Positions 973-32,575 of a stretch of 64,000 nucleotides of DNA are shown piece by piece. A program made the position numbers and the translations under genes. The stretch is from NCBI GenBank assembly GCA_000827205.1, contig KN832563.1, positions 692,863 to 756,862 on the forward strand, given 5' to 3'. Source of the stretch: Plicaturopsis crispa FD-325 SS-3. Lineage: Eukaryota; Basidiomycota; Agaricomycetes; Amylocorticiales; Amylocorticiaceae. The notes beneath the pieces were generated by a model that was not told where the DNA came from, searched no databases, and worked only from the letters and a program-made list of their open reading frames with translations. Every line of letters begins with the position of its first letter. Positions within the stretch are counted from its first letter, which is position 1.

Positions 973-1307
973 TGGCCCAAAATGAGTGTATTTCATTTAT
1001 TCGCTCACCACATCGCGTCGAGAAAATTCGAGCGATTTGATCCTAGGCATTTCAATGTTTGCGAATCTGAATCTGATTTTACCTGATTTTAATTCGCTCA
1101 TTTGAAGTCTCCAAAAGTCGTTTTCGACTTTGTGGCGCTCTGCGCGGCGAAAGCCGGCGGAGTTTGAAATCGAAACCAACGCGTCGTCGCTGTTGGTTTT
1201 CGACTTCCTCGTCGTCGTCGTCTTCCCCCACCACCTCGATCCGCGCAACGGCGCCGGCCCACCCCCTGCAAACTCGCAGGGGGGGGGCTCGTTTTGTTGT
1301 TTTTCTC

Positions 1308-1524
1308 TGTGGGGAAATCGTAGTCGTGATGCACTGGGCTGTTAGGCCACTGGTTGACAAGCACATGGGGCGCTACCGTAGGTACAGGCTGTATTTATAC
1401 TACTGCATAAAATATCCAGAAACCTCTCCAATGTTCCCTGCGCTCCCGCTTACTAAGCACCTTCCTAATGCGGTAATACCGAGCGTACACCAGAATATTC
1501 TGGCTTGCACCAGCATATCCAACA
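1308..1524 (-). repeat. LTR (3' in element sense)
   Basis: Left 217-bp terminal repeat of the TRIM-like element. In element orientation it is preceded by a purine tract and starts TGTTGGATATGCTGG. Confidence 0.88.
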
Positions 1525-2010
1525 CTCCTCCTCAAGCCAGCAATATTCTGCCTTGACGTGCAGAATCTCCAATCCAATATTATCCAAATTCCTGCTCCTC
1601 CTGATCCTTCAATTTCCGGGTAGAATCTGAGCAAGTTCGAGCAAGTCAAACGCTCTCGCGGCTTTACATAAACGATTGAACGCGTTCGGGTTTCGTGCCT
1701 TGTTCTCTCCAAGGACTTGCCTTGTTCACTCCGAGGGCTTCCAGTTCGTCTGCCTCCTTCACTCAGAGGACTTTCTTGCCTGGTTCACTCCCAGGACTTC
1801 CGGTGCCTGCTTCACTCACAGGGCTTTCGGGTACGTGCCTACTTCACTCGCAGGACTTTCGGGTCGGCTTCCGCGATCTGCGGCGTGCCACGGTCTCGGT
1901 GCCTGGTTCGCTTCCAGGACTTCGGTTCGGTTGCGCTCTCGGCGAGGGGCTTCCGAAACTTCGGATCCCGACGACTTTGGGAATCCAAAGTGCAAACGAC
2001 TATGCGCTTG

Positions 2011-2227
2011 TGTGGGGAAATCTTAGTCGTGATGCACTGGGCTGTTAGGCCACTGGTTGACAAGCGCATGGGGCGCTACCGTAGGTACAGGCTGTATTTA
2101 TACTACTGCATAAAATATCCAGAAACCTCTCCAATGTTCCCTGCGCTCCCGCTTACTAAGCACCTTCCTAATGCGGTAATACCGAGCGTACACCAGAATA
2201 TTCTGGCTTGCACCAGCATATCCAACA
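2011..2227 (-). repeat. LTR (5' in element sense)
   Basis: Right 217-bp terminal repeat, nearly identical to the left copy and followed by the TTCTC target-site duplication. Confidence 0.88.
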
Positions 2228-3299
2228 TTCTCTGAATTGTAAGTTCTGATATTTTGAACCGTTAGAACTCAGACTAACGAGCCACTTGCGTTGCAGACCC
2301 GATTGCTTGAACATCCATCCCCATCCCCATCCCCATCCCCATCACCTCTACCTTGCACGCGATACACCCACGCGCCCCTACCAGACGCCTGCGCTTTCCA
2401 GCTGCCGGCGTTTGATTACGCCAGCGCAGCACCAGACGGCGCGCACGCGCACGCGATGTCCCCATCTCAAAACGGCGCCGGCAGCCGTGGTCCCAACAAT
2501 GAACCACGGACGCTCACTCCATGTCCATTCCCGATGACGCCAGCGTGCACGCGCACACCATCCCACTCGCAAAACCGTGCTGGTACGCTGTTGTCCCAAC
2601 AGCAAACAACGGACGCCCACGGCGGATAACGCCAGCGCGACGCCATCCCACTCGCAAAGCCGCACCGGTATGCCGTCGTTCCAGCAACAAACGATGGACG
2701 TCCACGGCCGATGACGCCAGCGCGGCACCAGAGGCGGCGCGCACGCGCACGCCATCCCAATCGCAAACCCGCGCCGGTACACCTTCGTTCCAGCAGCAAA
2801 CAACGGACCCACGCCCGATGACGCCAGCGCGGCACCATGCGCAAACGCCTGACCGGGAGGTGGGGGCAGTGAGGTCGCAAGGGAGGCAGGGGTGGCAAGG
2901 GCAACGACGAAGGAGCGGCGACGAGGAGAGCGGCGACGAGGAGAGCGGCGGCGAGGAGAGCGGCGGCGACGAGGGGGCGGCGACGAGCGCAACAGCGGCG
3001 ACGGGCCCACCAGCCGGAAAGGTTGCGACATGGAACGGCGCAACGGCAATTCCGGATGCGTCGTCCATGTCGCGCTCCACGTCGTCGCCCCACCTGCAGC
3101 GTCGCCCACCACCACCGCACCTCGCGCCGCCGGCGCTGTCACCCTCAAATGCATCCCCGCGCGCTGCCAACCGGCGCATCACGCGTGCCACACCCCGCCC
3201 AATCTTGTGCACTCCCATATAAGACCGGCATATATATATATATGTTTTCTTTTTTACTCTTTCTTTCAATATGGAATCGTGTAGTCCTGTAGATTAAAA

Positions 3300-3850
3300 C
3301 TGAATGCCATTAAATGTTTGAGGTACAGAAATTCGAGCCCGGGGAAGAGTGAAAACCGACAATTCACGAAGGTTTGAGGAAGGCGGTCAAAAATAAATCT
3401 TGCGAGCCTCGAGGCACGACGACGGCGACGCAAAATTGACGCCGGGCAACGTCGGAGCCGTACGAGGCCGCGCGGAAGCTAACGGAAAAGCTCCGAATGC
3501 TTGGAATGATACTGAACGCCCGGATGATGTATCCGAGCATTGCAAGAAGCTCGTGGAAAGCCCTGCAGCCACGCGGAAACCAAGGGTAATAGCCCCGAGA
3601 TATTTTGAACGCTCAAACATTGGGTCCGAGGCCTGGACCCTAGCGCACCACCGGTGCAGCAAGCCAGAAGGCCCGATATTTGCCCGAAAAGCTTTCAGGG
3701 AAATGATTTGTCAGCATTGCAGTGAACCCGAAATCCTGCCAAACCTGCAGGCATATAGGATTGCAGCAGTGCATTATGATACAGACAGTAACTTACTGGA
3801 CAGTAATTTGCTGGTAAAATTGCAATTCGCATTTACAGTAAGTACTGTAC
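3300..3850. other. spacer between units A and B
   Basis: A frame on + (3400 onward) starts in this stretch, but its translation resembles no family I know and it runs on into the GC-rich sequence of unit B, so I do not call a gene. The right end has a short duplicated phrase (ACAGTAA...GGTAAAATTG) before ACATTACAAAACG, which resembles sequence near 9057-9080. Confidence 0.3.
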
Positions 3851-4640
3851 TACATTACAAAACGATTACAAGGACGCCTGGCCTGCCGCCGCCTTCCTTC
3901 CCGCCGCGCTCCTGCACCTACGCAGCCACCATCGGCGTACGACCTCGGGCCCGCCGTCTCGCGCTCGCACACGAGACGACACACCACCGCCGGCTTCCGT
4001 CCCGCCGCGCGCTCGCACAAACCCGCCACACTCAGTGCGCGACCATCTCGCGTGCGCACGCGAGACGACAACGACAGAACGAGACGCCATTAGGTGTTTC
4101 GTTGTCGTCGTTTTACATGCCACGGACCACCCCTCCTCCCGCCGCGCTCCAGCGCAAATCCCCCGGACTCTCACTCTTACTACGGGCCTGCCGTCCTGCG
4201 CTCTGAGCCCGCGCTCGTGCTCGCAAGACGGTGACGGCGGAGCGAGACGCCAGATCACCCACACGTAAATTGACATTGCCCACAGGCACATCGTAAATCC
4301 ACACACCCGCACGCATGTCAGCACCGCCCACACCGGTCCGCGCATGGGCTACGACTACAACATGGTCAGTGGCCACGCCTGAAGCCCATCCGTGCATCCT
4401 ATGTGCCACGGCCCTGTTTCCCTGTGCCCAAAGTTTGCGTGTCAGTCATGCCCACAACCACATGCGCATCAGCGGTGGCGACATCCACAGGTGCATGTTC
4501 AACAAATATGTCCATGTTTACAACGTCAGCACTTATGTCCACCCTGCACATCCATGTATGCTGCTGTTGAATAAATTTACTTTCTCTTTCCTATCTGCTG
4601 TCTTCCATCTAAGCTTCAGTGCATTTGTGGTGAATTAGAA
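3851..4640 (+). other. GC-rich unit B (no intron seen)
   Basis: GC-rich, CpG-rich sequence with repeated CGCGC/GAGACGAC phrases. A stem-loop at about 4079-4103 pairs ACGAGACGCC with GGTGTTTCGT around an ATTA loop. It needs two G.U pairs that work only in a plus-strand RNA. The stem is the same type as the array in unit F. The unit ends in a milder region and AATAAA at 4570-4575. I could not find the donor and branch-site module seen in units A, C, D, F and H, so B may be 5'-truncated. Confidence 0.45.
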
Positions 4641-4689
4641 TGAGCCAACACACTGACCAGTAAAGCTGCATAGAACTATGGAATGTGCG

Positions 4690-4889
4690 TTTAATTGTTA
4701 TACCATCTCAGCTATAAGAGCTATTAGACCACTCATATAGATATAAGTAAATCTTGGATATTTACAATAACATTGACAGAAAAATCACAGTAGCTATATG
4801 TGCTATGTGGTGCTATAAGAGTACCATCCCAGCTATATGTGCTATTACAAATTTTACACTTCTATATAGCCAAAGGGGTTTTCCTGATG
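4690..4889. repeat. orphan right end of a CATCAGGAAAA-family element
   Basis: Ends GGGGTTTTCCTGATG followed by TA, matching the right end of the element at 26922-28869 and, without the G run, that at 20804-24703. Subterminal CTATAAGAGCTATT-type motifs precede it, as in the 3.9-kb copy. No matching left end was found upstream in the window, so unit B may be the interior of a left-truncated copy. Confidence 0.55.
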
Positions 4890-5244
4890 TACACATTACA
4901 ATGCGGAAATTGCAGCGTCGAGCCAGCCCCTTCAGCCACTTGGGCAATCCTAGTGAATCCCCCACCTGGCACAACCCTTGGTAGCCTCGGATGCTCGAAA
5001 AACTTCGGAATCACTAGCCACTACATATCATTCCTTTCTCGGCTGCTTCTCTGGTGTTTCGGATACTCAACGGTGCCTCGCAACTTTGTCGCGTCCATAT
5101 TTGGAAATTTTGTAGGAGGAGCCGGCTATCTGTGTGCTTCTTCAAACCTTCGTACTGTACGATTGCCTCCTCCTCGCATTCCACTTTTCATCATATGTAC
5201 TTCTCTGTACTTCTTGATGTTATTTACTAGTCACGAAAGTATGG
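4890..5244. other. spacer before unit C
   Basis: Begins ACATTACAATGCGGAAAT, which recurs in near-identical form at 8987-9003 and suggests a shared repeat end. No gene is recognised. Confidence 0.3.
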
Positions 5245-6810
5245 AATGAAAAAACAATTTTATTTTCTACTAAATACATGCGAGCAATAATAAATATGCC
5301 GCACGCCCACGGCGCGTGCGAGGAGGACGAGGGCAGGTGCAGGGAGGGCGCGGGGGTTTGCGCGGCGTGCGCATGTACGCAGTGTGAGCGAGCGGGGAAG
5401 GGGAGCGTGTGCACGGAAAGGTCGTGGGCAGGTGCGGAGGCCGTAGGCGTGCACGAACGCGGGGGACGTGCGCGAACGCGAACGCGGATGACTTGGGCAT
5501 GCGCGGACGCGGAGGGCGTAGGCATGCGCGGACGCAGGGGGTGTGGGCATGCGCGAACGCGAACGAGAGGGCTTGGGTGTGCGGGGACGCGAATGCGGAC
5601 AGCTTGGGTGTGGGTGGACGTGAACGTGGACGGCTTGGGCATGCGCGGACACGGAGGGCGTGGGCATGCGCGAACGCGAACGTGGAGGGCTTGGGTGTGC
5701 GGGGACGCGGATGCGGATGGCTTGGGTGTGCGTGGACGCGAACGCGGACGACTTGGGTGTGCGTGGACGCAAATGCGGAGGGCGTAGGCATACGCGAACA
5801 CGAGCGCGCGTGCGCGTGCGCGGAAAGGGTGTGGGTTGCAGGTGGAGCCCTACGCAGAGGGCGTAGGCGACGGCGCAAGCGCGCGGGGCGCAGACGTAAG
5901 CGGGGAGGGAAAGGGCGTGGGTGTTGGCGTTGGCGTGGGCAGGCGAGGGTAGATGCGGGGCGGGCGTCTGCGTGCGCGTTTGTGCGGCCTCAGCGCAAAG
6001 GGCGCGGATGTGCGGGCGGCGTGAGCCCGAGGGCAGATGGGCGGGGACGGAGTGGGAGTGCGCGCGGCGTAACGTGCACGCGGAGGGTGTGGGGGCGTAT
6101 GCGAATGGCGCGCTGGGTGCGGAGGGGTAGGGCGTGCACGCCTGGGTCAGCGTGAACGCGTGAGGGTGCGTAGACGGCGTGGGCGCGGACGGCGTGGGCG
6201 CGAACGGCGCGGGCGCGAATGGCGTGGGTGGGCGCGGAGGACGTGACGTGGGTGGGCGTGGATGGCGTGGGTGGCGCGGATGGCGTGGGTGGGCGCGGAA
6301 AGTGCTTGCGTGCACGGACGGTGAGGGTTGCGTGGACGGCGAGGGCGAGGGCGTGGCGCATGGGGGTGAGCGCGGACGGCGTGGGCTTGGTCGTCATGAG
6401 AGCACGCCGCTGGCCCTGACGTGCTGGCGACGTCGATGGTGGAGGTGATGCGAGAGGCGGCGATGTGCGTGAACGTCGTGGTGGTGGTGGTGGTGGTAGA
6501 GTCCGTGAACGCGTAGATGAGCGTCGTCATGGCCGTGCCGGGGCTGCAAAATCGTTGTTAGCTGTGAATGAACGGATAGAAAGCAGGAAAAAGACTTACA
6601 GTATCAAAAAGAGAACAAAATGAAACCCCCCGCGAGGACGCAGGGGGCGTGCTGTTCGCTGTAGCGTACAACGACGCTGAGGAGACTGACGACGAGGAAG
6701 AGGAAAATGAACATCGACGACGCGCGTCGGTCGATTCCGATTTCCGATGGCCCGTGCGCGCAGTAGCCACACGGGCTTTCGACGACGTCTACCCGCTTCA
6801 AAAAAATCGG
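5245..6810 (-). other. spliced GC-rich minisatellite unit C
   Basis: Read on the minus strand, a short exon carries a stem-loop at 6647-6626: a 9-bp stem with a UCCU loop that needs one U.G pair, valid only in the minus-strand RNA. The donor GTAAGT follows 26 bases later at 6599. The intron is 6599-6544 (56 bases) with CAGCTAACAACG as branch region and TTGCAG as acceptor; this intron resembles that of unit H. The GC-rich minisatellite covers about 6520-5290 with repeats of roughly 24-48 bases. AATAAA (minus) lies at 5265-5260. Several overlapping frames stay open, as expected from repeat length rather than coding. Confidence 0.6.
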
Positions 6811-7249
6811 TTTAAATGTAAGAAAATCAGGAGGGTCGCCGATGTACCTGTAGAGTATACACAAGTAGTCATAAGTATTCCAAATCACTGTGTGCAAAGG
6901 AGCAAAGCAAAGCACCCATATCCGAGTGTTCCGGACATTTCGGCCGTTCCGCGTTACTCGAATACGGTACATTCTGCCCATTTGCGCAGGCTCTACTAGC
7001 GGGCACATCGACGGGATCCTCTCCGGAATCTCGGAGTATGCTAGCATGCATACATTGACAATGACTATTATTTTTTTGGAGTAAAAAGTGGCCCAGTGCT
7101 GCATAAGTCAGTATGCCTAAGTGTCGCAATCTGTCGCAAACTTTTAGGCTGGTGTTTCTTTCACTCACTCATTTCTGTCCGTTAAAAAAATATGAAACTT
7201 TGTATTCCTCATTCAAATGCATATAATAGTACACTGTATTTTTTTCAGG
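6811..7249. other. head-to-head spacer between units C and D
   Basis: AT-richer sequence of about 440 bp between the inferred 5' ends of two divergent units, so a candidate bidirectional promoter. It includes a short TATTTTTTTCAG acceptor-like site near 7240-7250, which suggests unit D may have an additional upstream exon. No gene is seen. Confidence 0.35.
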
Positions 7250-8860
7250 CTCCAAAACGTGTATACTACACGCAGGAAAAAGATTTGGCATCGTCGGAGG
7301 CAACGCGCGCAGCGTTCGGGCGTCTCCGGCGGAGTTTGAAATCTACGAACGCGTCGACAATGTTGGTTTTCTTTCCATCCTCGCTGTTCACCTCCTCCAC
7401 GTCGCTGCGCACCACGACGCCGGCCACCCCTCGCAGTATGCGAGGGGTGGCTATCGTTTATTCTTTATATCAAGTAAGTCCCCTTTCCCTTCCCCACCAT
7501 TAAAACTGAGTGCTAACAACTTTTCAGTGGCAGCCACGTCACACACCCCATACCCCCGCGACGTCGCAACGTTGCGCACACCCCACACGCACGGCACGCC
7601 CTACCCCATCCAACTAAACGGCCACCACCACCACATCCTTGTTCTCCGCGTCAGCCACGCACACCCGCCGCCTCCCCACCATTTTTCTGCGCCGCCGCCG
7701 CCCGCGTTGTCCAGATCTATCCGCGCGCGGTGGGCCTTCCGCATTCATTCAGGGCGTCTATTAAGGCTTCACACCGCCTCGTAAGTACTTTATTTTTTTT
7801 TTCACCGTTGCGCTGCGATGCTTACCGCAAGTTTCATAGGTACCTCTCAGTTCTGAGGACCGTGCCAAGCGCTGAGGCGAGTGCGATGGAGTGCGAGGGG
7901 GGGAGGGTATGGGAAGCAAGGGAGGGCAAGGGCAAGCGACGAACACCCCCGCGAGCTCACTACTCCGCATTCGACGCGCCGGCTGTGCCAGACCCAGGCA
8001 CTACGGGCGCGAACGATGCGGCAGAGCAGGCGGCAGGTGCCGCCGCAGCTATACCCTCAACGGTGCTGCGTGTGTCAGCGTAGCCCCCATCGGCGTCATG
8101 CACGTCCGTGTAACCCGTCCGTCCGTGCCCTCCCCCCGCTCGCGCTCTTCCCGTCGGCGCCGTGCACGCCTGTGCCCTCCCCATCAGTGCAGCCCCTTCA
8201 GCTCCCATCCGCGCCGTGGTGGTCTGCGCGGCCCGCATTAGCGTGCAGCCCCCTCCGCGCAGTCCATCAGCGCGGTACCCCTCTGGCCCTCTCCATGCAG
8301 GTTCCCAACACTGCCCACATTTGCGCGGTCCCGTCCGCGCAGTCCCTGTCCGCGTTGTTCCTGTTGGCGCAGCCCCCATCCACACCTCCCCCCTCTGCAT
8401 GGTGTGTTCTGGCGCCGTCCGCATCGCCGTCGCCTGCTCCGCGAATGCCAGCACTGTACCCCCCCACGCACGTTAGCACCGCACCCGTCAGCGCTGTACC
8501 CGCTTGGTTCGTCGGCACCGTACCCGCCGCGCACGTCTGCGCTAGGCCCATCAGCAGTGACCGTGCCGCGCGCTTCCGTGCGGTCTGCGCTGTGTAGCCC
8601 GCGTCTGTGCCGTGCACGCCGCCTGCATTTGCATGGCCTGTGCAGTGCCCGGCTGCACAATTCGCGCCATCCGGGTGGACACCCCCATTTTTTATGTCCA
8701 TTGAGTAGTATGCCTAGCCCCGACAGTGATCCAACTGGGTCCACCCAGTCTTCGAGATCACGACTGCGGGCATATGGCTCCTGCACACCCCGCGTGTGCT
8801 TTTTGTAGCACAGTATGATTGTATGGTAAAAATAGAATAAATTATTTTTGGCCCCAGTAC
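7250..8860 (+). other. spliced GC-rich minisatellite unit D
   Basis: The exon contains CGGCGGAGTTTGAAATC, shared with unit A, and the longest stem of the family: 11 perfect base pairs (7424-7434 with 7440-7450) around AGTAT. The donor GTAAGT is at 7474, 23 bases after the stem. The intron is 7474-7527 (54 bases) with GTGCTAACAAC as branch region. The GC-rich domain runs about 7530-8780, with a second donor-like GTAAGT near 7780. AATAAA lies at 8836-8841. A short frame (7372 onward) crosses the exon, but its protein is not conserved with unit A in the same frame, so I treat the unit as probably non-coding. Confidence 0.6.
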
Positions 8861-9640
8861 ATCCGAATGAGGGCCAGCCCTAATTTACAATCTGAGGCTG
8901 GATCTTGTAGGCTATTATTAGCATGCGCAGCTGCCCGAAAATCCTAGAGAGTCACATGATCAGACGGAAAAAATCTTTTGAACGACATTACAATGCGAAA
9001 ATGGCTGGCGGGTCTGTAAAGCTTGCCATTGTAATGCGACCTAGCTCTACGAAGGGCCACATTACAATACCTCTACAAGGACGCCTGCCGCGCCGAGTAC
9101 TAACTTGATTGAAACAGGCCTCCATGTACTTCTTTTTAAAAACCACCTTGCCCTTACCACGAACTGATTTACAAAACACCACCCAAATGTGTGCTAGCTT
9201 ACCACCGGTAAGCTACTAGGCTGTTTTCAAAAAAGCACCAGCTAAGATTCCTACCTGATCCCTTAGGATCCCGGGCAGATACTGTGGCTGCCCTCCCTCC
9301 CTATAAATAATTGTAAATAAATCGAATATTTTCTCGAATGTGGCTGAACCTGTGCCACCTCAAACATATGCAAACAACAGCCACTGAGTCTCGAGCCGCC
9401 GGGCTATTCTGCCACAGAATCAATACCCATAAACAAATGCTTTGGCCTGTCCGCGCGCGCATTCGGAATCTTCGGAGCGCAGTGGCTCTACACCTTTGGT
9501 TTCAAACACATACAAACACAGAACTTCCACTCGAAATTTAGGCTGTAAATTTGCCACAGCACTATTATCATACTTCACATTTATATGTTGTGTAGAAGGA
9601 CCTTATTTGACTGACAAGATGGACTGAGAAAAAGTTCATT
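8861..9640. other. spacer between units D and E with small repeats
   Basis: Contains a small hairpin (8988-9034, ends CATTACAATG/CATTGTAATG), the left member of an inverted repeat pair (9130-9215), and otherwise AT-rich sequence with no recognisable gene. Confidence 0.4.
9130..9215 (-). repeat. left member of an inverted repeat pair bracketing units E and F
   Basis: The reverse complement matches 13722-13805. The core GGTGGTGTTTTGTAAATCAG is identical, with looser similarity on both sides (GGTGGTAAG..., GGTTTTTAAAAA). The two copies lie 4.5 kb apart in opposite orientation. Confidence 0.7.
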
Positions 9641-11290
9641 GTTTCTCAAATGGTAGTTACATTTAACAAAACTATTGTAAAAAAATGAAAATGAAAAAAG
9701 GGGGCAGAGGGAGCCACAGACTCATAAGTATGCGAGCGCGCACGGGATGGGCTCGCACACACACCAAAGACGAGGTTCGCGAGTGCGCAGGGGTTGGGGT
9801 GGGCGAACACGCACGGGAGGGGATTCGCAAACACGCAGGGCGCGGCGATCGCGGACGCGCAGGGTCTGGGGATGGCGAGCGGGCAGGGGATAGGAATCAC
9901 AAACGCGCAGGGTATGGGGATGGCGAACGCGCAGGGCACGGCGATCGCGGACGCGCAGGGTACGGGGATGACGAGCGCACGGGGCACGGCGATTGCGGAC
10001 GCGCAGGGTACGGGGATGACGAGCGGGCAGGGGATAGGAATCACAAACGCGCAGGGTATGGGGATGGCGAACGCGCAGGGCACGGCGATCGCGGACGCGC
10101 AGGGTACGGGGATGACGAGCGCACGGGGCACTGCGATCGCGAACGCGCAGGGACGGAGACGGGGATCGCGAGCGTGTGGGGGACGGGGATCGCGAACGCG
10201 CAGGGACGGGGACGGGGATCGCGAGCGTGTGGGGGACGGGGATCGCGAGCGTGTGTGGGACGGGATTCACGGACGCCCAGGGGATGGGCACGGCAAGCGC
10301 GCAGGGACGGGAATGGCGAGCGCACGGGTCACAGGCACGGCGACAGCTCTGGCGCCGCGATGCCCCCATCAACAGACTCCTCACGGCGCAAACGTCCTGC
10401 GACGTCTGCGCTCGTGAGTGCTGCACAGGGTCCCAAACCCGCGTCCTCTATCCTCTCACTTCTTCTGTGTGACGTGGTTGCGTTCGGGGTNNNNNNNNNN
10501 NNNNNNNNNNNNNNNNNNNNNNNNNNNNNNNNNNNNNNNNNNNNNNNNNNNNNNNNNNNNNNNNNNNNNNNNNNNNNNNNNNNNNNNNNNNNNNNNNNNN
10601 NNNNNNNNNNNNNNNNNNNNNNNNNNNNNNNNNNNNNNNNNNNNNNNNNNNNNNNNNNNNNNNNNNNNNNNNNNNNNNNNNNNNNNNNNNNNNNNNNNNN
10701 NNNNNNNNNNNNNNNNNNNNNNGACAGCTCTGGCGCCGCGATGCCCCCATCAACAGACTCCTCACGGCGCAAACGTCTGCGACGTCTGCGCTCGTGAGTG
10801 CTGCACAGGTCCCAAACCCGCTCCTCTATCCTCTCACTTCTTCTGTGTGACGTGGTTGCGTTCGGGGTGTAGCCGCTGCGCGTGCTGACATACGGTGGCC
10901 GGGGGTGTGTGCTCGCATGGGACGTGTGGGTGCAGGGCGTCGAGCACTGTATCTACGAGCAAAAAGAACATTTTGTTCAGTGAGGGAGGAGGAAAAACAA
11001 TGAAAAAATGGGCTTACAGGTCGGGTACGATGTGCCGGGGTAGCAGGGAAGATATGGGCTCTAATAGCCTCGCGGTTACCTCGGCAGGGCCTGGTCAGAC
11101 CCCACTCAGATGCGCGCGGAGCGTTCGAGCCCACAGGCCGTAGACAACGACAACGACGGCAAGAGGAAAGACGCGGCGAAAATTTCGAGCCACAGTGAGT
11201 TCGACGTCACGTGGCCCAGTCGCGTCTCAGTCGCGTCGCGCCACTTCGACGTTCGTTGTCGTGCTGGCGCTTTAATCTCAGTTCTTTCCT
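9640..11290 (-). other. spliced GC-rich minisatellite unit E (contains an assembly gap)
   Basis: Read on the minus strand, an exon near 11290-11018 is followed by donor GTAAGC at 11017 and an intron to about 10953 ending in TAG. The GC-rich domain spans about 10890-9690. On the plus strand it is a clean 24-base repeat (phrases such as GCGATCGCGGACGCGCAGGG) with a higher-order repeat of about 142 bases (9886 and 10028). Because 24 is a multiple of three, frames of 207, 234 and 370 codons stay open on both strands. I see no protein signal. The stem-loop before the donor is not obvious here. Confidence 0.5.
10491..10722. other. assembly gap (232 N) between duplicate flanks
   Basis: The 149 bases before the gap (10342-10490) and the 146 bases after it (10723-10868) are nearly identical. 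The gap therefore joins two copies of one sequence and is more likely an unresolved repeat or allele join than missing unique sequence. Confidence 0.9.
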
Positions 11291-11889: not shown

Positions 11890-12700
11890 GAATAATCTAC
11901 CGTAGTTTGAGCGAGCGGCGTCGTCGTCGACGCTGAGCAGACCTTCAGCCACAGCGATCGGAAATTGCCGAACTTGCCATTTGCGGCAACTTCGCGCGAC
12001 GATGTTTTCCTCTGCGCCTCCATCATCGACGACGACGACTCGCTCGTCGTCCGTCGTGCGTCCTCCCCAGCTCGTGTCTGGGAAGCCTTTCATAGTTTTC
12101 TATAATGTAAGTTTATTTCTATACTTTTTCACCGTTAAATTCGCGCTAACGAGACCTCTTTGCAGCCACGTCACCGCCTCCCGCGTTGCCCCGCCGCCCT
12201 CTGGACCATCGCATCGCGTCGCACACGCCCAACCACGCACGTCGGCGCCTCGCCGTAAACCGTGCAGTGCCAGCACCGCACTCGCACACGCCCCGCGTCG
12301 GCACTTGCGCCGTAAACCGCGCCGCACCGTCCTCCATTGGAGCAGGGGCCACGGAGCGTCAGACGAGATTCGAGAAGGCGGCGCCCTTCGCGTTCCCCAG
12401 CTCGTGTCTGGGGAACTCTCTCTTTCCTCTCTTCGGTGAGCCCATTCAGTTTTTTTCACCGTGAAATTCGCGCTAACGGTGCCTTTTTGCAGCCACGTCA
12501 CCGCCTCCCCAGTCCCCTGCCGCCCTCTCGACCACCGTGTCGTGTCGCACACGCCTACTCGCACACCACGCACACCACCAGGGTGTAGACGAGAAGGCGA
12601 CGGTGGCGACGGCTCACCGAGCGCCCACGATGACGGCCCACCGCGCGCCCACGGCGACGGCCGTCTCACCGTGCCCCTCCCCCCTTCCTCACCTCACAGA

Positions 12701-13270
12701 ACGAGATGCCGCTTGGCGTCTCGTTTTTTGTTCCTCAGTACCACCACGCGCCCTCGAAGACGGCCGTACCACGCGCGCACGGCGACGGCCCACCGCATGC
12801 CCTCGAAGACGGTCCGCAACGCGCGCACGGCAACGGCCGTACCGCGCGCCCACAACGACGGACCGCCGGCGACAGCCGACTCACCCCGCCCCCCCTTCCA
12901 CACACGACAGAGCGAGACGCCGTTTGGCGTCTTGTTTTGCTCCTCAGCAACGCGCGCCTACGACGACGGCCGCCTCACCCCGCCCCCCTTCCACACCCCG
13001 CTAGACGAGACGCCTCATGGCGTCTCGTCTTCCACACCCCACAGAACGAGACGCCGAACGGCGTCTCGTTCGCTCCTCAGCACCGCCGTCCCGCACCGCG
13101 TGCCCACACCGAACGCCTCCCCTTCCACACCCCGCAAGACGAGACGCATGCGGCGTCTCGTCTTGCTTCTCGGCACCGCCGTTTGAGGCCGTACCGCGCG
13201 CGCACCCCGACGGTCAAGCACTCCCCCTCCTTACCCCACAAAACGAGACGCCCGCTTGGCGTCTCGTTTT
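12701..13270 (+). repeat. array of six CGAGACGCC...GGCGTCTCG stem-loops
   Basis: Stem-loops at 12701-12724, 12912-12935, 13003-13030, 13045-13070, 13136-13164 and 13240-13270. The inner stem GAGACGCC/GGCGTCTC is almost constant. The loop and the outer stem vary, and where the outer stem differs (AGACGAG/CTCGTCT against AACGAG/CTCGTT) both sides change together. A related hairpin is in unit B at 4079-4103. The conserved pairing points to RNA structure or palindrome-driven amplification. Confidence 0.8.
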
Positions 13271-13365
13271 GATCCTCAGCCACGCCACACCATTCATGGC
13301 CGTACCGCGCGCCGACGGCAACAGCCCACCCGCTCCGCCCCTCCCATGAGCCACCGCGTACGGCC

Positions 13366-20148: not shown

Positions 20149-20180
20149 GTCCAGTGTTCGATAATTATCGAACACTGGAC
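20149..20180. repeat. 32-bp perfect palindrome in the left pogo end
   Basis: GTCCAGTGTTCGATAA followed directly by its reverse complement. Each half is also the motif present twice at the right end. It is probably a transposase-binding site in duplicate, with a cruciform-forming geometry. Confidence 0.85.
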
Positions 20181-21889: not shown

Positions 21890-23950
21890 AAAATAAATAT
21901 ATTTGAGCAATGCTTTACATGATATGTTTCTACTGAAATGATAATTATCCACGCGTACGCCCCTCTGGAGACTGGCACTGCACTGGTGTTACGGGCATGG
22001 GCGTGGGTGGTTTGGTTAGTGCTGGGACCTGGTGTGCCACCCCCGTTTTTGCGCGCGTGTGCTGGCTCTGGCTCGCCGTCGCCGCTTCGTGTTTCGCGAG
22101 TGCGCGCCGCCTCTGGCGCAGCGCTAGCGTGGGCGTCGAGAACGCGCATGAACACCATTTGTACGCGTTATCGAGAACGCGGAGGGGGCGTGGGCGTTCT
22201 CGAAAATGCGAGGGCGTGAGTGCTGTCGAAAACGCGCACGGTGTTGGTGCGCGTTGTCGAAAACGCGAGGGCGTGCGCATTGTCGAGAACGCGAGGGCGT
22301 GCGCGTTGTCGACAATGCGCAGGGCGGGGGCGTTGTCGAGAGCGCGCAAGAACGGGGGCGTTGTCGAAAACGCGGAGTGCGGGGGCGTTGTCGCAAACAC
22401 GCACGGCGCGCCGGGTGTCGTTATGAGCGTGCAAGGGCACGGGCGCCGTCGAGTGCGCAAGGGCGCGGGGCGCCGTTGAGGACGGTGAGGGCGCGGGCGT
22501 TGTCGAAAACGCGCAACGCGTGGGCGCTGTCGGAAACGCGCAGGGGCGTCGGCGGTGTCGAGAACGCGTGAGGGCGTCGGCGTTGTCGACAGTGCGCGGG
22601 GGTGTCAGTGTGGTCGAGAACGCGCGAGGGCGCCGCGTTATCGAAAACGCGTGGGGGCGGGGGCACGGTTGACAGTGCGCGGGAGCGTCGGCGTTGTCGA
22701 GAACGCGCAAGGCGTGCGCGCTGTCGGAAACGCGAGGGTGTGGAGGGCGTGGGCGCTATCGAAAATGCGCCCGTGCGCGTTGTCGAAAATGCGCGGGGGC
22801 GTCGAGAACGCGCAAGGGCGCGGGCGTTATCGGAAACGCGCAGGGCGCGGGGGTCGTCGAGAGCGCGCAAGGGCGCGGGCGTCGTCGAGGGTGTGGAGGG
22901 CGTGGGCGCTATCGAAAACGCGCCCGTGCGCGTTGTCGAAAACGCGCAGGGCGCGGGCGTTATCGGAAACGCGCAGAGCGCGGGCGTTGTTGAGAGCGCG
23001 CAAGGGCGCGGGCGTTGTTGAGAGCGCGCAAGGGCGCGGGCGTTATCGAGAGCGCGCAGGGCGCGGGTGTTGTCGAAAACGCGCAGGGCGCGGGTGTCGT
23101 CGAGAACGCCCAAGGGCGTGGGTGCCGTTGAGAACGGCGGGCGCGGGCGTCGTCGAATGGGACAGTGGCGTGCCGTCGCTGTTTCGCATGTGTGCGGGCG
23201 CCGCCGTCTTCCGTGTGCGCGTCGCTGTTTTGCGTGTCGGTGTCAGTGGCGTATTGCTGGGACGCCCTCGCCGGTTGGTGTGTGCGAGCCGCCGTTTTGC
23301 GGGTGGGTGTGGGTGGGGACTGGCGCGCCGCCGCCGTTTTTTCGCGTGGGCGTCCGTGGTTTGGTGCTGGGACCGTGGCGCCGTTTTGCGCGTGCACGCC
23401 GCCTCTGGCGTGAGCGGGCGTGGGCGTCGGTCGGATGTTGCTGCGTGCTGCCGTTTTGCCCGTGCGCGCCGCTTCTGGCGCTGCGCTGCCGTTTTGCGCG
23501 TGGGTGCTGGTGATTTGGTGCGGAGATCGTGGCGCCGTCGTCGCCGTTTTGCGCGTGTGCGCTGGCGTCGTTTTGTGAGTGCGGCGGGGCACGGTGTGGT
23601 GTGGGCGTGCGCGTTGTGCACACTACGGGCTGTACATGTGTTAACAAGGACATTTATGAAAATTAAACTTATTACTTACCTATTTGAGACCTCGTCACAA
23701 ACTCCCGCTACCCTGCAGTCGACGGCCGGATGGTGGTGGAAAAAGCCTGGAGGGAAGATACAAGATAAGATGAGAGAATGGACTTTGAGAAAATTGACAG
23801 AGTCGACGCGCGGCAAATGAGCGTGGGAATGATTGCAGGACACTGCAATCTCCGATCCTTGCCACGTCAATTTTGTCTTTGTTCTTGCTCTCTACCGTCA
23901 CCTCCCCTCTGCAAACGACTGGCCGCAGCACTGACACATCATTGCTGTAC
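21890..23950 (-). other. spliced GC-rich minisatellite unit G
   Basis: Minus-strand reading: an exon ends in CTCAAATAG followed by donor GTAAGT at about 23680, with an intron to about 23631 ending ACATGTACAG. The GC-rich domain (23630-21960) is a roughly 30-base repeat around GTCGAGAACGCG / GGGCGTTGTCG, with a second type (GCCGTTTTGCGCGTG) at 23160-23600. An AT-rich tail lies to the left. A perfect 7-bp stem (ATTGCAG/CTGCAAT) sits at about 23835-23852, further from the donor than in other units. Open frames of up to 421 codons exist on several frames because the repeat length is a multiple of three. Confidence 0.5.
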
Positions 23951-24269: not shown

Positions 24270-26921
24270 GGTAAGTTTTATATCTCCCCTAATGTTGTAC
24301 TATGCCTGACTTTATTATATTCTAGATTGAAGGACTTTTTATAGAGTGCCAGACTGACAAATGGTCAGTTTCTGGCAGTAGCATGTACTTTGTAGCTAGA
24401 AGCTAGATTAGTGCTTGTATCTAGTTAGTGAAATGCATTGATTTGAACGTCTTTTCATTTGTTCTTTAAGAGTCTATAAGAGCTCCTATAGCTATCATAG
24501 CCCAAGATATTATGCTAAAAACCATGCCTGCTATTGTAGCTATATAAGCTATAATAGTAGAGTCAGCCAAAATGGCCAAATATAGTGTCTATATAGACAG
24601 GGGTAATCTCTTGTAGCTAGTGGAACTATAAGAACTATATGGTGCTCTATAGCGTCTTATAGCTCTGTATAGCAACCTTGGAACATTTTTGATTTTCCTG
24701 ATGTAATGTGCCTTATAGTACTCTGCACAATCGTTTTCAGGGTCTGCATAACTCCTCTCGGGCTGCTCATGCTAAAGAACAGCGCCTTACCACAGAACAG
24801 GAGAAGTGCCTCGTTGATTGGGCGACCCATCTCAGTGACCAGGGTCGGCCTCTCACGAAGCATTCCCTCATCCGGATGGTTCAGCACCTATCCGACTCAT
24901 ACGAGCCAGTTCCCAAGAAGTGGTATCGACGATTTCTGGCGCGGAACCCGTCACTCAAATTCGGAAAGGCCACTGGCCTTGACCCGAAGCGCGCGCAGGC
25001 TTTCAACCGAGCCACCGTCGACGACCACTTCACGAAGCTCGGAGACGTGTTGGACAGGGAGCATATTTCGTGGAGGAATGTGTATAACATGGACGAGAAG
25101 GGATGCCAGAGAGGCGGGGGGCGAAAGGCAAACTCCATTAAATATCTTGTCCCTCGCAACAGACGCCCGAAATGCAAGCTTCGTAGTGCGAATCTCAAGC
25201 TTGTCACAATTATTGAGTGTGTCTGCGCAGACGGCTCAAGTCTTCTCCCCGGTTTCATATTCTCTGGCAAGGAACTATTGCCCGAATGGTTCCAAGTGGA
25301 CGACGGCATTTGGTATGATTTCTGCTCGCAAATTCTCAGCATGTATAAATACTCACGGTGACCATTTACAGTATCGGCACATCTGAAAATGGGTGGACAG
25401 ATGATTTTCTGTGCATGGAATGGTTCAGGCAGTCGTTCATCCCTCAGACGAAGGCACGGAATGATTCAGGAGAGAAAATCCTTCTCATTATTGACGGACA
25501 CGGCTCGCACGTCACGGGTGAAATGCGGGAGCTCGCGGTGGAAAATAATATACATCTCTTCTGTCTCCCACCGCATACGACGCACCGGCTGCAGCCATTG
25601 GACGTTGGGGTCTTCGGGCCATTCCAGAACAAATGGGCGCAGCGGTGTGACGCCGTGCTTCACGAGACCGGAGAGGAGATTCGACGAGCAGACTTCGTTA
25701 AGGAATATATGTCGGTGCGCGCCCAAACGTTCTCGGAGACGACCATCAAGAGTGCGTGGGCGAAGACCGGTATCAACCCGCGCAACCCCAACATATTCAC
25801 TGACGCCGACTTTGCACCAAGTTTCATCGCTTCTACCATTGGCCATGTCCCCGAGAGCTACCCAACCGGTCCTCTCGATTTCGACGTCGGCGGCGGCGAA
25901 GACGCCGAGCAACAAGCCAGCAGCGACGAGGATGAGGACGAGTCCGAATCAGACTCGACCAGTGACTCGGATTCCTCGAGCGACTCGGGCTCGGAGTCTG
26001 GCAAATCGGACGAGTCGAGTGAATCGGACGAGGACGAGGCGTCGAGTGAATCGGACGAGCGTAGCGAAGCGGGTGCAATGGAGAGTGGTGTGCCGGCTGG
26101 AGACGACGAGGAAATGCGCGAGAAGGATGTTGGCGGTGGTACGGCCGACGGACAGCGTGACGAGGGCATCGTCCGGCCATCTGGTGGCACCCGTCAGTTG
26201 CGTGACAGCAACGTTGAGCAAGGAACGTACCTACGCGGCTCAATGCCATCGTCGCCAGCGCCGCCAGATCCGAGCACGTCTGCTGCAGGCCTGACGGCAG
26301 CTTCAAGTTCAGCTCGCTCGCGCCGCTGTCAGCGATACACCACCGACCACGGTACCGTTCCACCCTCCCGCTCTCATCGTTCCCTCTCTCAGCAGCTGGA
26401 TGCTGCAAACGAGGAGAATCGGCGTCTCCGCGCAGAGCTCGAGACGGCCTTATTGAGTCTACGCGAGGCCGAGTCTCACTGCAAGATGGCAAAGCTGGAA
26501 ATCGACGAGCTGCAGAAGAAAATCAATGCAAAGCAGCAGCGACGGGCGAAGAAGCGTAACCTTGTTACGACGTCACGGCTACTCACGTCCGCCGACGCTC
26601 TCGCGGATTATCGTCGACAGGAGGACGCCCGGAACGCCGAAGCACAGAAGAAGCGGGATGCGCAGCAGCAGCGAGAGGAGGAAGAAGCGAGCAGGCAGGC
26701 CAGGAGAGAGCAGCATTCGTCGACGGCTATCTTCAGCGGAGCGCTTGCGTCGAAGAAGAAAGCCGATCTTCAAGATATCGCGTACGCGTTAGGCTTAGCA
26801 CTGACAGGCAAGAAAAACGACCTCTCACATCGCATTTTGGCGCATCTTGACGACCATCCCGAGCGCCGGAATGACCCTAGGTTCGAAGGGTTGTACATCG
26901 CACTTGCGCGCGGCCAGAAAC

Positions 26922-28869
26922 CATCAGGAAAAAGGGGGATTCTTAATGCTATGAATATGTCTTAATTATCGGAAATTAAGGCTAATTAGCGAAAATTCGC
27001 AGTAAATAAAATTAGAGGTTTTAGCTACCCCCCCCTCTAATTTAGCATCACATTAAGAGCATTAGTACACTTTGGCATGAACTTCATGCTATTATCGTCT
27101 AGTTAGAGCGAAGTTGATAGTCAATTGATGCAGCTTAATGCCCAAGAACATGCACTATACAAATAGACACTTAGTGAGATATACGGATATCATAACGCTC
27201 GGACTAGCAGATGCAAGGGGAAAACCACATCATATTCGCATTCTACACTAAGGACTCGAACTAGTATCCTACAATACATGATATACTGAATGTATCCTAT
27301 CCTGCTATAATATCGGAGGCATCTAGGTTAGGTTGAGGTTAGATCATACGTACTTCTGTAAGTGAACAAGCGACTTACCTCTGTAGTAAATGCGCGCAAC
27401 AACCAGTGAGATACACTGTTGTTGGCGCGATGTCGGGTGGACGCCACCGCGGGCATGTGGGAACGCAACTGCATAGTGCGTGGCCTGCAAAATAAGTCAT
27501 TAGCTGCTAGCGGTCTACGAACCAGAAGAGGGGGTTTACCACGTACCTTTCGTGATACTACCCCAGTCCGACGAGCCCTACAACGCAGCGTGCATGCGAG
27601 TCACGGACCAGTGCGGGAGTGTGGAGGTTAGCACAGAATTGGTGTGCTACCCAACCTGCGCGCAATCGCAAATGAGGACAGAATAAAGAGAAGAGAACGA
27701 GCTCACCTTAATACTTGACGGGCATAAGCCAACAGTAGGACACCAACGGCAATGGCATAGGAAAGGAGGGGTGATGGAGGAAAGACATGAATAAAAGAAA
27801 GTGGAAAGACGAACAAGTCAAATTTCGCCGGCGACGCGCGGAATTTCTGCCACGTCGACGCTCAACGTTCAACATCCATCCACTCTCGACTTCTTCAGCT
27901 GCCGTTGTCGCTGTCGCCATGTCCAGCGCAGGGCACGTTGAACGTGAATCTTCGAAGGCCAGTGGACTCTACACTTGGGGTGAGTTTCTGACATATTACC
28001 ATATACTTTCATGACTTATACTGTTTGTACGACAGTCTCGCCCTCGACTTCAAGGTACCCACATCGACGGTCGTGACAGCAGCCCATGTCACTCTTCCCC
28101 ACTCTCGCATGGTGCCGCGTGCCAGCGCTAGCGGATTCGCAGCAGGCCCTTGCAAATCCGCATCACCTCTGGTGCGTTAACATTACCTATCAACTTGGTT
28201 GACTCAGGCTAACGCGTTGACACTGGCACCTGCATATCCAATATCGACAGCACGCACCCACCATCCATCTACCGGCCACCCTGTGTCTTCTTCCCCACCT
28301 CTACCCCTTCCGCACACGCGCCCGCTCCCGCCTGTGCCCATGTACTCGCACTACGGTGTCGCACCACACCGGCCGCGTGGCTGCTTTACTGTGGGTGCCT
28401 GTCAGGGTCCTGCCGCACCTCCCTGTCAATTGCGCGGATATGCTACGCTGCGGTGTGGACCATTTATGCACCACGCAGGTGGACATCCCATGTCAACGGT
28501 AGGCGCACAACGTTGCAAACACGCTTGTTGTAGTAGTGTCGTTCAGAGTACTAGTATATCTTGATTTATGCTGTCTCGTACTTTGCTACTTAGCAATGCA
28601 ATATACTTTTCTTGAGAAACATTGCAATTGAAGATCATAGATCCATTTGGAGTTCGGCTTCGCAAATCATCACAATGAGCTCCAATGCACATACACTGAT
28701 ACCAATTACAATCATACTTGTACAACAGTGAGACTACTTAGCATGGAGCTCTCTAAATTATAAGAACTTAGAGACTTAGAGACATTGGAGCTCTTTACCG
28801 CCATTATGCAAAATTGATGCGAAATTAGCGAGCCTTAAAGCTTTTTAAGAATCCGGGGTTTTCCTGATG
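26922..28869. mobile_element. CATCAGGAAAA-end DNA element, 1.95 kb, inserted in the pogo transposase
   Basis: Inverted ends CATCAGGAAAAAGGGGGATT / GGGGTTTTCCTGATG with a 2-bp AC duplication (26920-26921 and 28870-28871). Removing the element plus one AC restores the transposase frame (...ARGQK R QAPEADVND...). Subterminal regions carry TTAGAG/TTAAGA motifs. The interior holds unit I and no transposase. A TATGTCTTAA stop just inside the left end now terminates the transposase frame. Confidence 0.82.
27780..28560 (+). other. unit I, spliced cargo of the 1.95-kb element
   Basis: Begins with a GCCGGCGACGCGCGGAATTT phrase reminiscent of unit A/D exons, then ATGTCCAGCGCAGGG, donor GTGAGT at about 27980 and an intron of about 56 bases ending ACGACAG. 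A second intron-like stretch (about 28173-28207) has donor GTGCGT. The 3' domain (28210-28540) is GC-moderate and open for 121 codons (28199-28564), including a His/Pro-rich segment. It resembles no family I know. It lacks a long minisatellite. Confidence 0.35.
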
Positions 28870-29305
28870 ACGACAAGCGCCAGAAGCCGATGTGAACGAC
28901 GACGCCCCCGCGGGTAGACCTTCCAATCGACGCCGTCTAAACGACTCACGCACGCCCGGTGCTGTCGCTCAGCCTCTCGCGCCGACGACAGTCAACAACA
29001 TCCCAGGACCACCACCGAATATCTCCTCGAACGCGCCGCCCCTCACAAACAATAATTCGCATTTGCACATGCGCGACGAGAACGCCCCGCCGCTACCTCT
29101 GGATCCGTCTTATCCGCACCCCAACCCACACGAGCCTGCCTGTAAGGGATCGGTCCCTTACAGGTAACCTAGCGCGGCCGGCCAGGCCTTGTCCACCTCG
29201 GTAGCGGGCGTTAGGCGCTGTAACAGACTAGGAATAGGGGCATGATAGATCAGTGGCTAAGGCTGGTGCAATTCCGGCGTGCTTCATTTTCCCACGGTCG
29301 TTACA
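28390..29305. repeat. first copy of a 916-bp segment duplicated across the assembly gap
   Basis: Identical or nearly identical to 29541-30456 (offset 1151). It includes the end of unit I, the right end of the 1.95-kb element, the transposase segment 28872-29140 and an LTR. It ends where the two copies diverge after the LTR. Confidence 0.9.
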
Positions 29306-29413: not shown

Positions 29414-29540
29414 NNNNNNNNNNNNNNNNNNNNNNNNNNNNNNNNNNNNNNNNNNNNNNNNNNNNNNNNNNNNNNNNNNNNNNNNNNNNNNNNNNNNNNN
29501 NNNNNNNNNNNNNNNNNNNNNNNNNNNNNNNNNNNNNNNN
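29414..29540. other. assembly gap (127 N)
   Basis: Separates two copies of the same 916-bp segment. The left copy carries a TRIM with interior, the right copy a solo LTR at the same site, so the join probably places two alleles end to end. Confidence 0.9.
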
Positions 29541-30456
29541 TGTGGGTGCCTGTCAGGGTCCTGCCGCACCTCCCTGTCAATTGCGCGGATATGCTACGCT
29601 GCGGTGTGGACCATTTATGCACCACGCAGGTGGACATCCCATGTCAACGGTAGGCGCACAACGTTGCAAACACGCTTGTTGTAGTAGTGTCGTTCAGAGT
29701 ACTAGTATATCTTGATTTATGCTGTCTCGTACTTTGCTACTTAGCAATGCAATATACTTTTCTTGAGAAACATTGCAATTGAAGATCATAGATCCATTTG
29801 GAGTTCGGCTTCGCAAATCATCACAATGAGCTCCAATGCACATACACTGATACCAATTACAATCATACTTGTACAACAGTGAGACTACTTAGCATGGAGC
29901 TCTCTAAATTATAAGAACTTAGAGACTTAGAGACATTGGAGCTCTTTACCGCCATTATGCAAAATTGATGCGAAATTAGCGAGCCTTAAAGCTTTTTAAG
30001 AATCCGGGGTTTTCCTGATGACGACAAGCGCCAGAAGCCGATGTGAACGACGACGCCCCCGCGGGTAGACCTTCCAATCGACGCCGTCTAAACGACTCAC
30101 GCACGCCCGGTGCTGTCGCTCAGCCTCTCGCGCCGACGACAGTCAACAACATCCCAGGACCACCACCGAATATCTCCTCGAACGCGCCGCCCCTCACAAA
30201 CAATAATTCGCATTTGCACATGCGCGACGAGAACGCCCCGCCGCTACCTCTGGATCCGTCTTATCCGCACCCCAACCCACACGAGCCTGCCTGTAAGGGA
30301 TCGGTCCCTTACAGGTAACCTAGCGCGGCCGGCCAGGCCTTGTCCACCTCGGTAGCGGGCGTTAGGCGCTGTAACAGACTAGGAATAGGGGCATGATAGA
30401 TCAGTGGCTAAGGCTGGTGCAATTCCGGCGTGCTTCATTTTCCCACGGTCGTTACA
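29541..30456. repeat. second copy of the 916-bp duplicated segment
   Basis: Matches 28390-29305 base for base over the stretches I compared. After it the sequence continues in the transposase frame. Confidence 0.9.
30292..30456 (+). mobile_element. solo LTR of the TRIM-like element
   Basis: A 165-bp LTR with a perfect 5-bp duplication CTGCC (30287-30291, 30457-30461), inserted in the transposase tail. Same LTR and same site as 29141. This is the product expected from recombination between the two LTRs. Confidence 0.88.
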
Positions 30457-31169
30457 CTGCCTCGTCTCGACATCCTTTCAGCACACACCAACCGCCGGCT
30501 AGTACATATACCGGCAATAATACACACAATCCAAGTTCACCCCCATCTAATCATTATCTGTATACTTATCCTGCACCATATACTTATCCTCATTCCTGGT
30601 CCCCTCCAGGATTACTCTCATATGTTCATAGTTCACCGGATGGCCATCCTAATCTTCGTTCTAGCATACCTCCCTCCCAATTTTACGGTACATAGTCCAC
30701 TTAACACCCTCCGACTACTTATAATCTTTCTGTAGATGCCCGACTGCATAATTTCGATAGCTAATCTTTCATCTTTCAACATGCAAACGTTCGAACTTCG
30801 TTTCGTTAGACACTGCGCGCTGCGTCGCTGCTCAAACGCGAGCGGCGCCTGCCGAGACTGCGGCAAGGTGTCGGAGCTGAAATCCTATGCATGCCGATGA
30901 AGCCGACACTGTGACTGCCCGTGACAAACCGCCAAGAGATTATCGAACACTGGACCCCTTTTCATTGCGCATCCGTAGACACAGTACTCGACATTTTCGT
31001 TTCAAAAAAAATGGAATCATGAAGTATAAGAGCTATATATGCGTGTACAGAAGGACCGGCAGCAAAAGAAATCGTTGTTGAAGAGCAAAAAAAAGTTTCG
31101 TCGAGATTATCGAACACTGGACTCATGATAGTACCTTCTCATAGACAGACTCTCTACAGTCTAGGACGA

Positions 31170-32575
31170 TAGCGGACCTTGCCGCAGGCTCAGTACCGCC
31201 ACGGCCTTCCCACGCGCCCCATCCGCGTCGCCTCCGTGTCAGCGCACCCACCGGCAACCCCAGCGACAGCGCCGGCTTGCAAAAACCGCACACCGCACGA
31301 GCACGCCGCGAGCGTCAGCCCCGCTCCCCACAACGAACCACAGCAGCGGACTGCCGCCGTTCAGTCCCTGTCAGGGCGCATGTCTGCGTGGACACGGCGC
31401 CGGCGCGCGACGACACCAACCACGACCCATTACTTATGCGTCTCTGCGTGCTGCGAGGACGACTGCCCTCTGCATTATTGCGGAGCTCTCACCTTGCTGA
31501 AGTTGCTGGTAAGCCCTTGTCTTCGTTCTTTCATCCGCTTATCGCAGCTAACAACCCTTTTTCGCGCAGTTATAACTATACTTTGCGCAAGCGGGCGTCG
31601 CGCGACTCCGTTCCTGATCGACCGCAGCACCCGCGATATCCTCGATGATGTCCTTATGACCGTAATTCAGCACACGGCAGCCCGAAGGTCCGCACTCTCG
31701 CGCCCTCGCGCCCTTTGACTGCTCCCACACGCCGGCAACTTGTTCGCCTACCCCGCGCGTAGACAGGCAGGACAACAAGGAGAGGTTAGTGACTGCAGGG
31801 AAGGCTCAGGAAAGCATCAGGGAGTCGGAGGGAGCGGGAGATTTGCGCGAGACATGGTGTCGCCCACCCATCTCCCCACTGCGCACACCGACACCGCGCT
31901 TTCTGTCGCTCCCAATGGCACCACACTACCACGATCAGGCCGACAGCGCTTTCGCTATCCCCACGTACGACCTCTGTCACGGTGCCGCTGCCTTCTCCGT
32001 GCCCATCCCACCTCACCAACGCTGGAGCTGGGCTGCATCGCCTCCTTATCACGCGCAGCACGACGACAACACCCCACTTCGCGTACACCCTATCGCGTCG
32101 TATGGCGTATGTACGCGCACCATCCCGCCCTCAACATCTACTCCCGCGCTGGCTCCCTACAGCTAGTATACTCACCGCTACGACCTATCCTGTGTACACC
32201 AGCAGTCCTGTGCTGTCATCGCGCCCGGCGGCACCAGCCCCCCTTGTCGTCGCGACACCAGCGCCACCCAAACCAGCAGGTGGTAGACGGCACAAGCATC
32301 GTGAGGCAGGTGATCCACAACGGTCGGTCAACGGCACGGTAAAAATATGACAGGTACGTCCGGCAAAGCGAACCTTGCGCACAGCTAGATTAACCTTATC
32401 ATTCAGCTGTTTTATGCGAACGCCCGCCCCGCCCGGTGGGACGATGCCGGTGTAGTCTCTACATATATTCCATTCCCGCGGTAAAGCGGGCAGAGGCGAT
32501 GCTTCCGTGGGCGGGAAATGAAGCGGGAGTGCGGTGCGCGATACAGGCTCGTGGATAGAATAGCCGAAATAAAAT
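31170..32575 (+). other. spliced GC-rich minisatellite unit H
   Basis: A stem-loop at 31468-31485 (6 bp including a U.G pair, ATTATT loop) is followed after exactly 23 bases by donor GTAAGC at 31509. The intron runs to about 31569 with CAGCTAACAACCC as branch region and CGCGCAG as acceptor; it is clearly similar to the intron of unit C. The GC-rich sequence to about 32400 is less regular than in other units. AATAAA lies at 32568-32573. It starts just outside the right pogo end. Confidence 0.55.

Follow-up and report, generated by a model that had tools for sequence, protein, structure and literature searches.

What kind of locus carries a hairpin just before the donor of a short intron and a GC-rich minisatellite just behind it, in several diverged copies? 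This question is raised by a stretch of 64,000 nucleotides of contig KN832563.1 of Plicaturopsis crispa FD-325 SS-3 (the window), the single 64-kb stretch to which the study of this family was confined. An earlier note on this DNA had described at least five such units (A, C, D, F with the modules F1 and F2, and H) as a dispersed family with one common order. The family exists and merits a search of the whole genome. Units A, C, D and F represent one unit in diverged form, H is probably a distant copy and a further candidate, G, is possibly a member. With about even confidence, the units are taken to be transcription units that arose by local duplication and are specific to their lineage, most likely long non-coding RNA (lncRNA) loci.

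Homology and splice signals of the units

Sequence searches of the window showed that D matches A with 70.8% identity over 154 nt (E 2e-17) and that C matches A with 64% over 235 nt (E 3e-15). C and F have the exon end and intron in common (E 9e-8), and a self-search aligned the modules F1 and F2 with 75% identity over 197 nt. A profile built from A, C, D and F1, the exon-plus-intron search that had been proposed, here run inside the window, recovered its four sources, the split second part of A, and F2 at E 4e-9. Weak profile matches were H (E 0.19) and G (0.54), followed by a segment inside D (0.72) and another in the gene-rich half (0.93); in the reversed window, used as a control, no match was better than E 2.3. 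The accepted matches span 1.0-12.6 kb, with the weak matches G at 23.8 kb and H at 31.4 kb, so that the family is better called clustered than dispersed. H is considered probable because of a 104-nt match between C and H (E 4e-5) and the common order of stem, donor and branch site. The order is kept in A, C, D and F: a leader exon, a 54-61 nt GTAAGT...CTAAC...CAG intron, a C-rich minisatellite exon and an AATAAA/ATTAAA-type end. The features are as follows.

1120..1307, plus strand: leader exon of A, approximate start; upstream hairpin 1173-1199, donor-side hairpin 1257-1288
1308..2227, no strand assigned: short long terminal repeat (LTR) element inside the leader exon of A, not part of the family; 217-nt LTRs, target-site duplication TTCTC
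2239..2296, plus strand: predicted intron of A, 58 nt
2297..3293, plus strand: C-rich second exon of A, up to ATTAAA
6600..6790, minus strand: leader exon of C, approximate start; donor-side hairpin 6626-6647
6544..6599, minus strand: predicted intron of C, 56 nt
5264..6543, minus strand: C-rich minisatellite exon of C, up to AATAAA
7290..7473, plus strand: leader exon of D, approximate start; donor-side hairpin 7423-7451
7474..7527, plus strand: predicted intron of D, 54 nt; alternative acceptor possible at 7533
7528..8836, plus strand: C-rich second exon of D, up to AATAAA
11930..12106, plus strand: leader exon of F, approximate start; upstream hairpin 11961-11993, donor-side hairpin 12063-12085
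12107..12165, plus strand: predicted intron 1 of F, 59 nt
12392..12416, plus strand: hairpin of the second module of F, stem sequence as in F1
12436..12492, plus strand: predicted intron 2 of F, 57 nt
12698..13271, plus strand: array of six palindromes, CGAGACGCC-loop-GGCGTCTCG, in the minisatellite exon of F, which ends with AATAAA at 13509
31468..31485, plus strand: donor-side hairpin of H, marginal against shuffles
31509..31569, plus strand: predicted intron of H, 61 nt
31570..32568, plus strand: C-rich second exon of H, up to AATAAA
21903..23866, minus strand: possible unit G; upstream palindrome 23831-23850, donor near 23680, C-rich minisatellite, donor-side hairpin absent

The predicted introns of 54-61 nt that had been described are all present (A 58, C 56, D 54, F1 59, F2 57 and H 61 nt), each with CTAAC. 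A strict pattern, GTRAGY...CTAAC...YAG, was found seven times in the left 33 kb compared to a shuffle mean of 0.18 (maximum 2). Six of these seven introns belong to the family units and the seventh lies at 27378 on the minus strand; the gene-rich half (33000-64000) has none, unlike the units. Among A, C, D and F1, identity is 1.00 in the donor hexamer and 0.92 in the branch region but 0.42 in the intron interior, 38% in the upstream region and 37% at the start of exon 2. Nearly invariant donor and branch motifs next to drifting interiors favour real, selected splicing, with motif ascertainment as a caution. A poly(A)-type signal lies 1.05-1.40 kb past the first donor (AATAAA in C, D, F and H, ATTAAA in A). 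The second exons are C-rich in the sense strand in all seven cases examined (A, C, D, E, F, G and H; skew -0.14 to -0.41). Tandem Repeats Finder (TRF) reported arrays in A, C, D (a single short array) and F and none in exon 2 of H, so that the term minisatellite is weak for H.

Unit A calls for a reservation. The LTR element (920 nt; LTRs with 2 differences) separates the hairpin of A from its donor, and A, its leader split by this young insertion, is at present probably not spliced as drawn. In the reconstructed empty site, the junction of A was placed 2-3 nt downstream of its true position (at 2235 or 2236, not 2233). This flaw, which falls just before the donor, affects the inputs of the homology search, leader folding, profile and shuffles and the A row of the conservation and donor comparisons. 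The identities of D and C with A quoted above come from searches of the unjoined window and are free of it, and the donor-accessibility test used the correct junction (2233).

Hairpins at the RNA or the DNA level

The stems before the donors are present where they had been described, and their spacing to the donor lies within the 19-30 nt claimed (C 26, D 23, F1 24, F2 19, H 23, and A 30 in the LTR-empty site only). Against dinucleotide shuffles, the best hairpin within ~60 nt of the donor was exceptional in A (P 0.021), C (0.001), D (<0.001) and F2 (0.001), marginal in F1 (0.075) and H (0.065), and absent in G (0.91). Among 27 intron-like candidates, hairpins were stronger at six unit donors than at the 21 other predicted donors (Mann-Whitney p 5e-4, base composition not matched); A was scored on the LTR-free exon (23, present-day score 13). 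In view of the shuffles and this donor comparison, the donor-side hairpin holds for most units, not for all. A second hairpin further upstream is found in A, F and G at the positions listed. At its six closing positions A, F1 and G pair at 6, D at 5 and C at 4. The leaders of A, C and D fold with z -3.0 to -4.4.

The marginal hairpins bear on another explanation, that GC-rich sequence yields hairpins and GTAAGT...CTAAC by coincidence and that there is no family. Those of F1 and H do not exceed shuffles at 0.05, and the profile E values of H and G are close to that of the match in the gene-rich half. Leader homology down to E 2e-17 and the excess of strict introns over expectation argue against it. 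Coincidence is very unlikely as a general account: for A, C, D and F it is unlikely, for G it is possible, and for H it is possible but less so than for G.

The earlier note held that the stem sequence differs in each copy and that pairing kept despite such change argues for selection on RNA structure. The first part was not confirmed, as the stems of F1 and F2 are identical and the arms of A, C and D cross-pair at 7-8 of 8 positions. With stems registered by hand from the loop outward, 2 of 6 arm permutations equalled the true pairing for A, C and D, and 2 of 24 when F2 was added. Adding H gave 2 of 120 and adding G 2 of 720, which is nominally significant and favours RNA selection; this signal leans on the hand-set register and on weakly matching homologues, among them G, whose stem pairs at just 5 of 8 positions. 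RNAalifold gave unfavourable covariation terms, +2.67 for A, C and D (two-sided change in 1 of 28 pairs) and +1.53 for six rows (4 of 12 pairs), both on MAFFT alignments that misplace some arms, in the case of A, C and D the right arm of D. In the hand register A and D differ by two pairs changed on both sides. A simulation put the chance that all 8 pairs survive 30% divergence at ~0.016, so that some constraint or repair is likely, at the RNA or the DNA level. Covariation due to RNA selection is not established: the arms of A, C and D are nearly interchangeable and the RNAalifold term is unfavourable.

These data bear directly on a structured RNA family, in which the donor-side and upstream hairpins would be selected as RNA, for instance for protein binding or an influence on splicing. 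The sequences behind its covariation evidence comprise four secure ones and two or three doubtful ones, and we regard this hypothesis as rather unlikely. It draws on the hairpins of A, C, D and F2, which exceed shuffles, the stable leader folds of A, C and D, the two-sided changes, the permutations with H and G and the simulated rarity of intact stems. Furthermore, the upstream hairpin arms are interchangeable between A and D and nearly so between F and G, with no exchange between these two groups. The exchangeable donor-side arms, the covariation terms and the missing donor-side hairpin of G speak against it. So does the strand comparison of the leaders, in which the antisense fold (z) is stronger than the sense fold in five of eight (A, D, F1, F2 and G) and weaker in C, H and E. 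Predicted donor accessibility showed no consistent hairpin effect (unit mean 0.37 vs 0.30, p 0.29), and arm scrambling altered it only in C; we therefore commit to no splicing role for the hairpin. Rfam gave no match over the window at the gathering threshold, and none up to E 1 over 1000-13900, a range outside which H and G lie.

When a stem is selected as RNA, surviving mismatches are expected as G.U pairs in the transcribed strand. The earlier note had reported U.G pairs valid only in the strand predicted by the intron. This is so in C and H; the reverse case (A.C in sense, G.U in antisense) occurs in hairpin 2 of F and hairpin 3 of F1 and, by eye, in hairpin 2 of A. Over all palindromes of the eight unit intervals, GU:AC counts were 15:10 at scores of at least 24, 30:42 at 20 and above and 38:57 at 18 and above, some cells lying in presumed loops since loop size was left free. 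There is thus no sense-strand preference over these palindromes, a further point against RNA selection, and wobbles are not confined to the RNA strand. Palindromes are spread throughout the units, second exons included: 22 of the 37 that score at least 24 lie in unit intervals, 10 elsewhere in the left half and 5 in the right half, corresponding to densities of 1.72, 0.50 and 0.16 per kb. This makes template switching at the DNA level a live alternative. Template-switch mutation can make or repair perfect stems and produce multi-base compensatory change at the DNA level (PMC8794818). The unit hairpins resemble such stems in both respects; the published cases are found in RNA genes, among them rRNA and microRNA (PMC8794818). 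Most likely, the hairpins are kept by palindrome-repairing DNA mutation of this kind, perhaps with some RNA-level constraint.

The palindrome array of F leans the other way, towards RNA selection. Its six tandem palindromes have a seventh counterpart at 4074-4110, and GAGACGCC occurs 15 times in the window compared to 2.3 expected. In the array and the 4074 copy, all seven wobble-type exceptions within positions 1-12 read G.T on the plus strand, the sense strand of F, and 192 of 5040 permutations gave outer stem pairing at least as good as the true one. This small set is partly of common ancestry and was picked post hoc, with an assumed strand for the 4074 copy; the G.T bias would equally arise from strand-biased C-to-T change. 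A new spliced structured-RNA family, with a variable hairpin 19-30 nt before the donor and an upstream hairpin both selected as RNA and with a C-rich exon that may carry tandem RNA hairpins (F), is a rather doubtful reading. The units are a compact test case for RNA-structure selection versus DNA-level palindrome repair, two processes that covariation alone cannot separate.

Candidate transcription units, coding frames and mobile elements

Under the preferred reading, of lncRNA-like transcription units, RNA polymerase II would read each unit from a promoter just before the palindrome-rich leader exon. The transcript would be spliced once (twice in F), continue into the C-rich, mostly tandem-repeated exon and be cleaved near the AATAAA-type signal. 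Transcription, splicing, polyadenylation and an absence of coding are predicted here from sequence features. The leader-plus-intron module would be the copied and retained part, and the repeat body would have re-expanded privately in each copy. If expressed, the family would represent a promoter-leader-intron module that multiplies by local duplication, with the rest of the transcript turning into a private minisatellite.

Basidiomycete lncRNAs offer a partial parallel. Like the units as predicted here, they are intergenic, have few exons, lack a clear coding frame and show weak sequence conservation (PMC6525899). The intergenic lncRNAs of Coniophora puteana and Serpula lacrymans are mostly monoexonic and lie mainly in transposon-sparse regions (PMC6525899). 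The units, in contrast, are ~1.2-1.6 kb long, GC-rich and minisatellite-bearing, lie in a repeat-rich block and have a leader module shared among paralogues.

Several points weigh against the preferred reading. These basidiomycete lncRNAs are mostly <500 nt and GC-poorer than genes (PMC6525899). GTAAGT and CTAAC helped to pick the units, so that motif conservation is partly ascertainment; the orientation of E and G rests on weaker introns; and two 1.3-kb stretches of the left half that lie outside the units are strongly C-skewed as well. Finally, a phase-0 frame runs through the junction without a stop in C (112 codons), D (103 or 101) and F (97); in all three it has PRH at or close to the beginning of exon 2.

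This open frame suggests that the units might be a fast-evolving family of short protein-coding genes, some of them broken, with hairpin and T-rich spacer as incidental features. D and F have an in-frame ATG, and H has fewer stop codons than shuffles (P 0.012). Because the junction frame is open in three units (C, D and F), they might encode a short peptide that evolves fast. Other data disagree: C lacks an open reading frame with ATG in the junction-spanning frame, and A has a TGA in it just before the donor. Exon 1 mismatches among A, C and D are even over codon phases (p 0.54, 0.33 and 0.83), A and D are in the same frame in 73 of 146 aligned columns, and codon similarity reached at most z 1.74 against column shuffles in nine tests. 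Stop-codon numbers are unexceptional in A, C, D and F, and the minisatellite copies show no clear codon-phase effect. The codon-phase and codon-similarity tests gave no purifying selection on one frame. A conserved protein frame across the copies, named earlier as a possible refutation, was looked for and no clear one was found, one frame being open in C, D and F. A coding family is quite unlikely.

The units may also be non-autonomous transposable elements, or parts of elements, with promoter, leader and intron. The setting would suit this, as the repeat-rich half holds the LTR element, a pogo-like transposase and palindromic repeats. Inverted repeats of 101 nt with 75% identity flank the block of E and F (9133-9232 and 13704-13804) and are possible element ends; no target-site duplication was recognised around them by eye. 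Flank comparisons exceeded z 3 in 3 of 28 cases (E/F 5.9, D/F 4.5, A/C 3.4), under lenient scoring that is not relied on. In the self-search, from which minisatellite-to-minisatellite matches were filtered out, A, C, D and F had no common terminal repeats or 3' parts outside the leader-intron module. We consider a transposable element unlikely. Of the natures that had been suggested, a non-coding RNA family is favoured in lncRNA-like form, and a non-autonomous element is less supported.

Known systems with similar parts were also considered. In spliced-leader RNA a short exon carries a hairpin near the donor; the units differ in having a branch site and an acceptor within 61 nt, in the style of an ordinary cis-intron. 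Helitron ends combine a GC-rich hairpin with a short motif, the two being separated by a small, constant distance. By eye, no CTRR is found 10-12 nt past the hairpins of A, C and D, where GTAAGT, a branch site and an acceptor follow instead, and a Helitron end was rejected. The earlier note knew of no described element with this architecture, and a literature search, mostly without subscription papers, found none either.

Surroundings of the family

The window is eukaryotic, and its gene content and intron form look fungal and Agaricomycete-like. The introns are short, and Pfam matches (10 stretches scanned, 7 with a match at E <= 0.01) include an NPHP3_N/NACHT-type ATPase, a phosphoglucomutase and a pogo-like DDE_1 transposase. 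The left half is repeat-rich and the right half (33000-64000) gene-rich. A tRNA scan of the window with bacterial settings found none. An exact-pattern search for relatives of the units in viral and genome contig collections found none, and a lone matching stretch in the viral contigs was put down to chance; fungal DNA is almost absent from these collections, so that missing matches there are no evidence of absence.

Several other repeats were observed in the left half. A nearly perfect, foldback-like or MITE-like (miniature inverted-repeat transposable element) inverted repeat of ~375 nt lies upstream of A at 599-973 (85% over the self-complementary alignment). The pogo-like DDE_1 transposase (24673-26965) has a weak SAP match and is enclosed by inverted 48-nt repeats of 87.5% identity at 20118-20165 and 31106-31151; a perfect 32-nt palindrome lies at 20149-20180. 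Two repeats lie astride N runs and may be assembly duplications: a 149-nt repeat in unit E (10342-10490 and 10723-10868, 98% identical) and a 916-nt direct repeat (28390-29305 and 29541-30456, 100% identical). Downstream of F, a 173-nt tandem repeat is present in 3.2 copies at 14149-14696.

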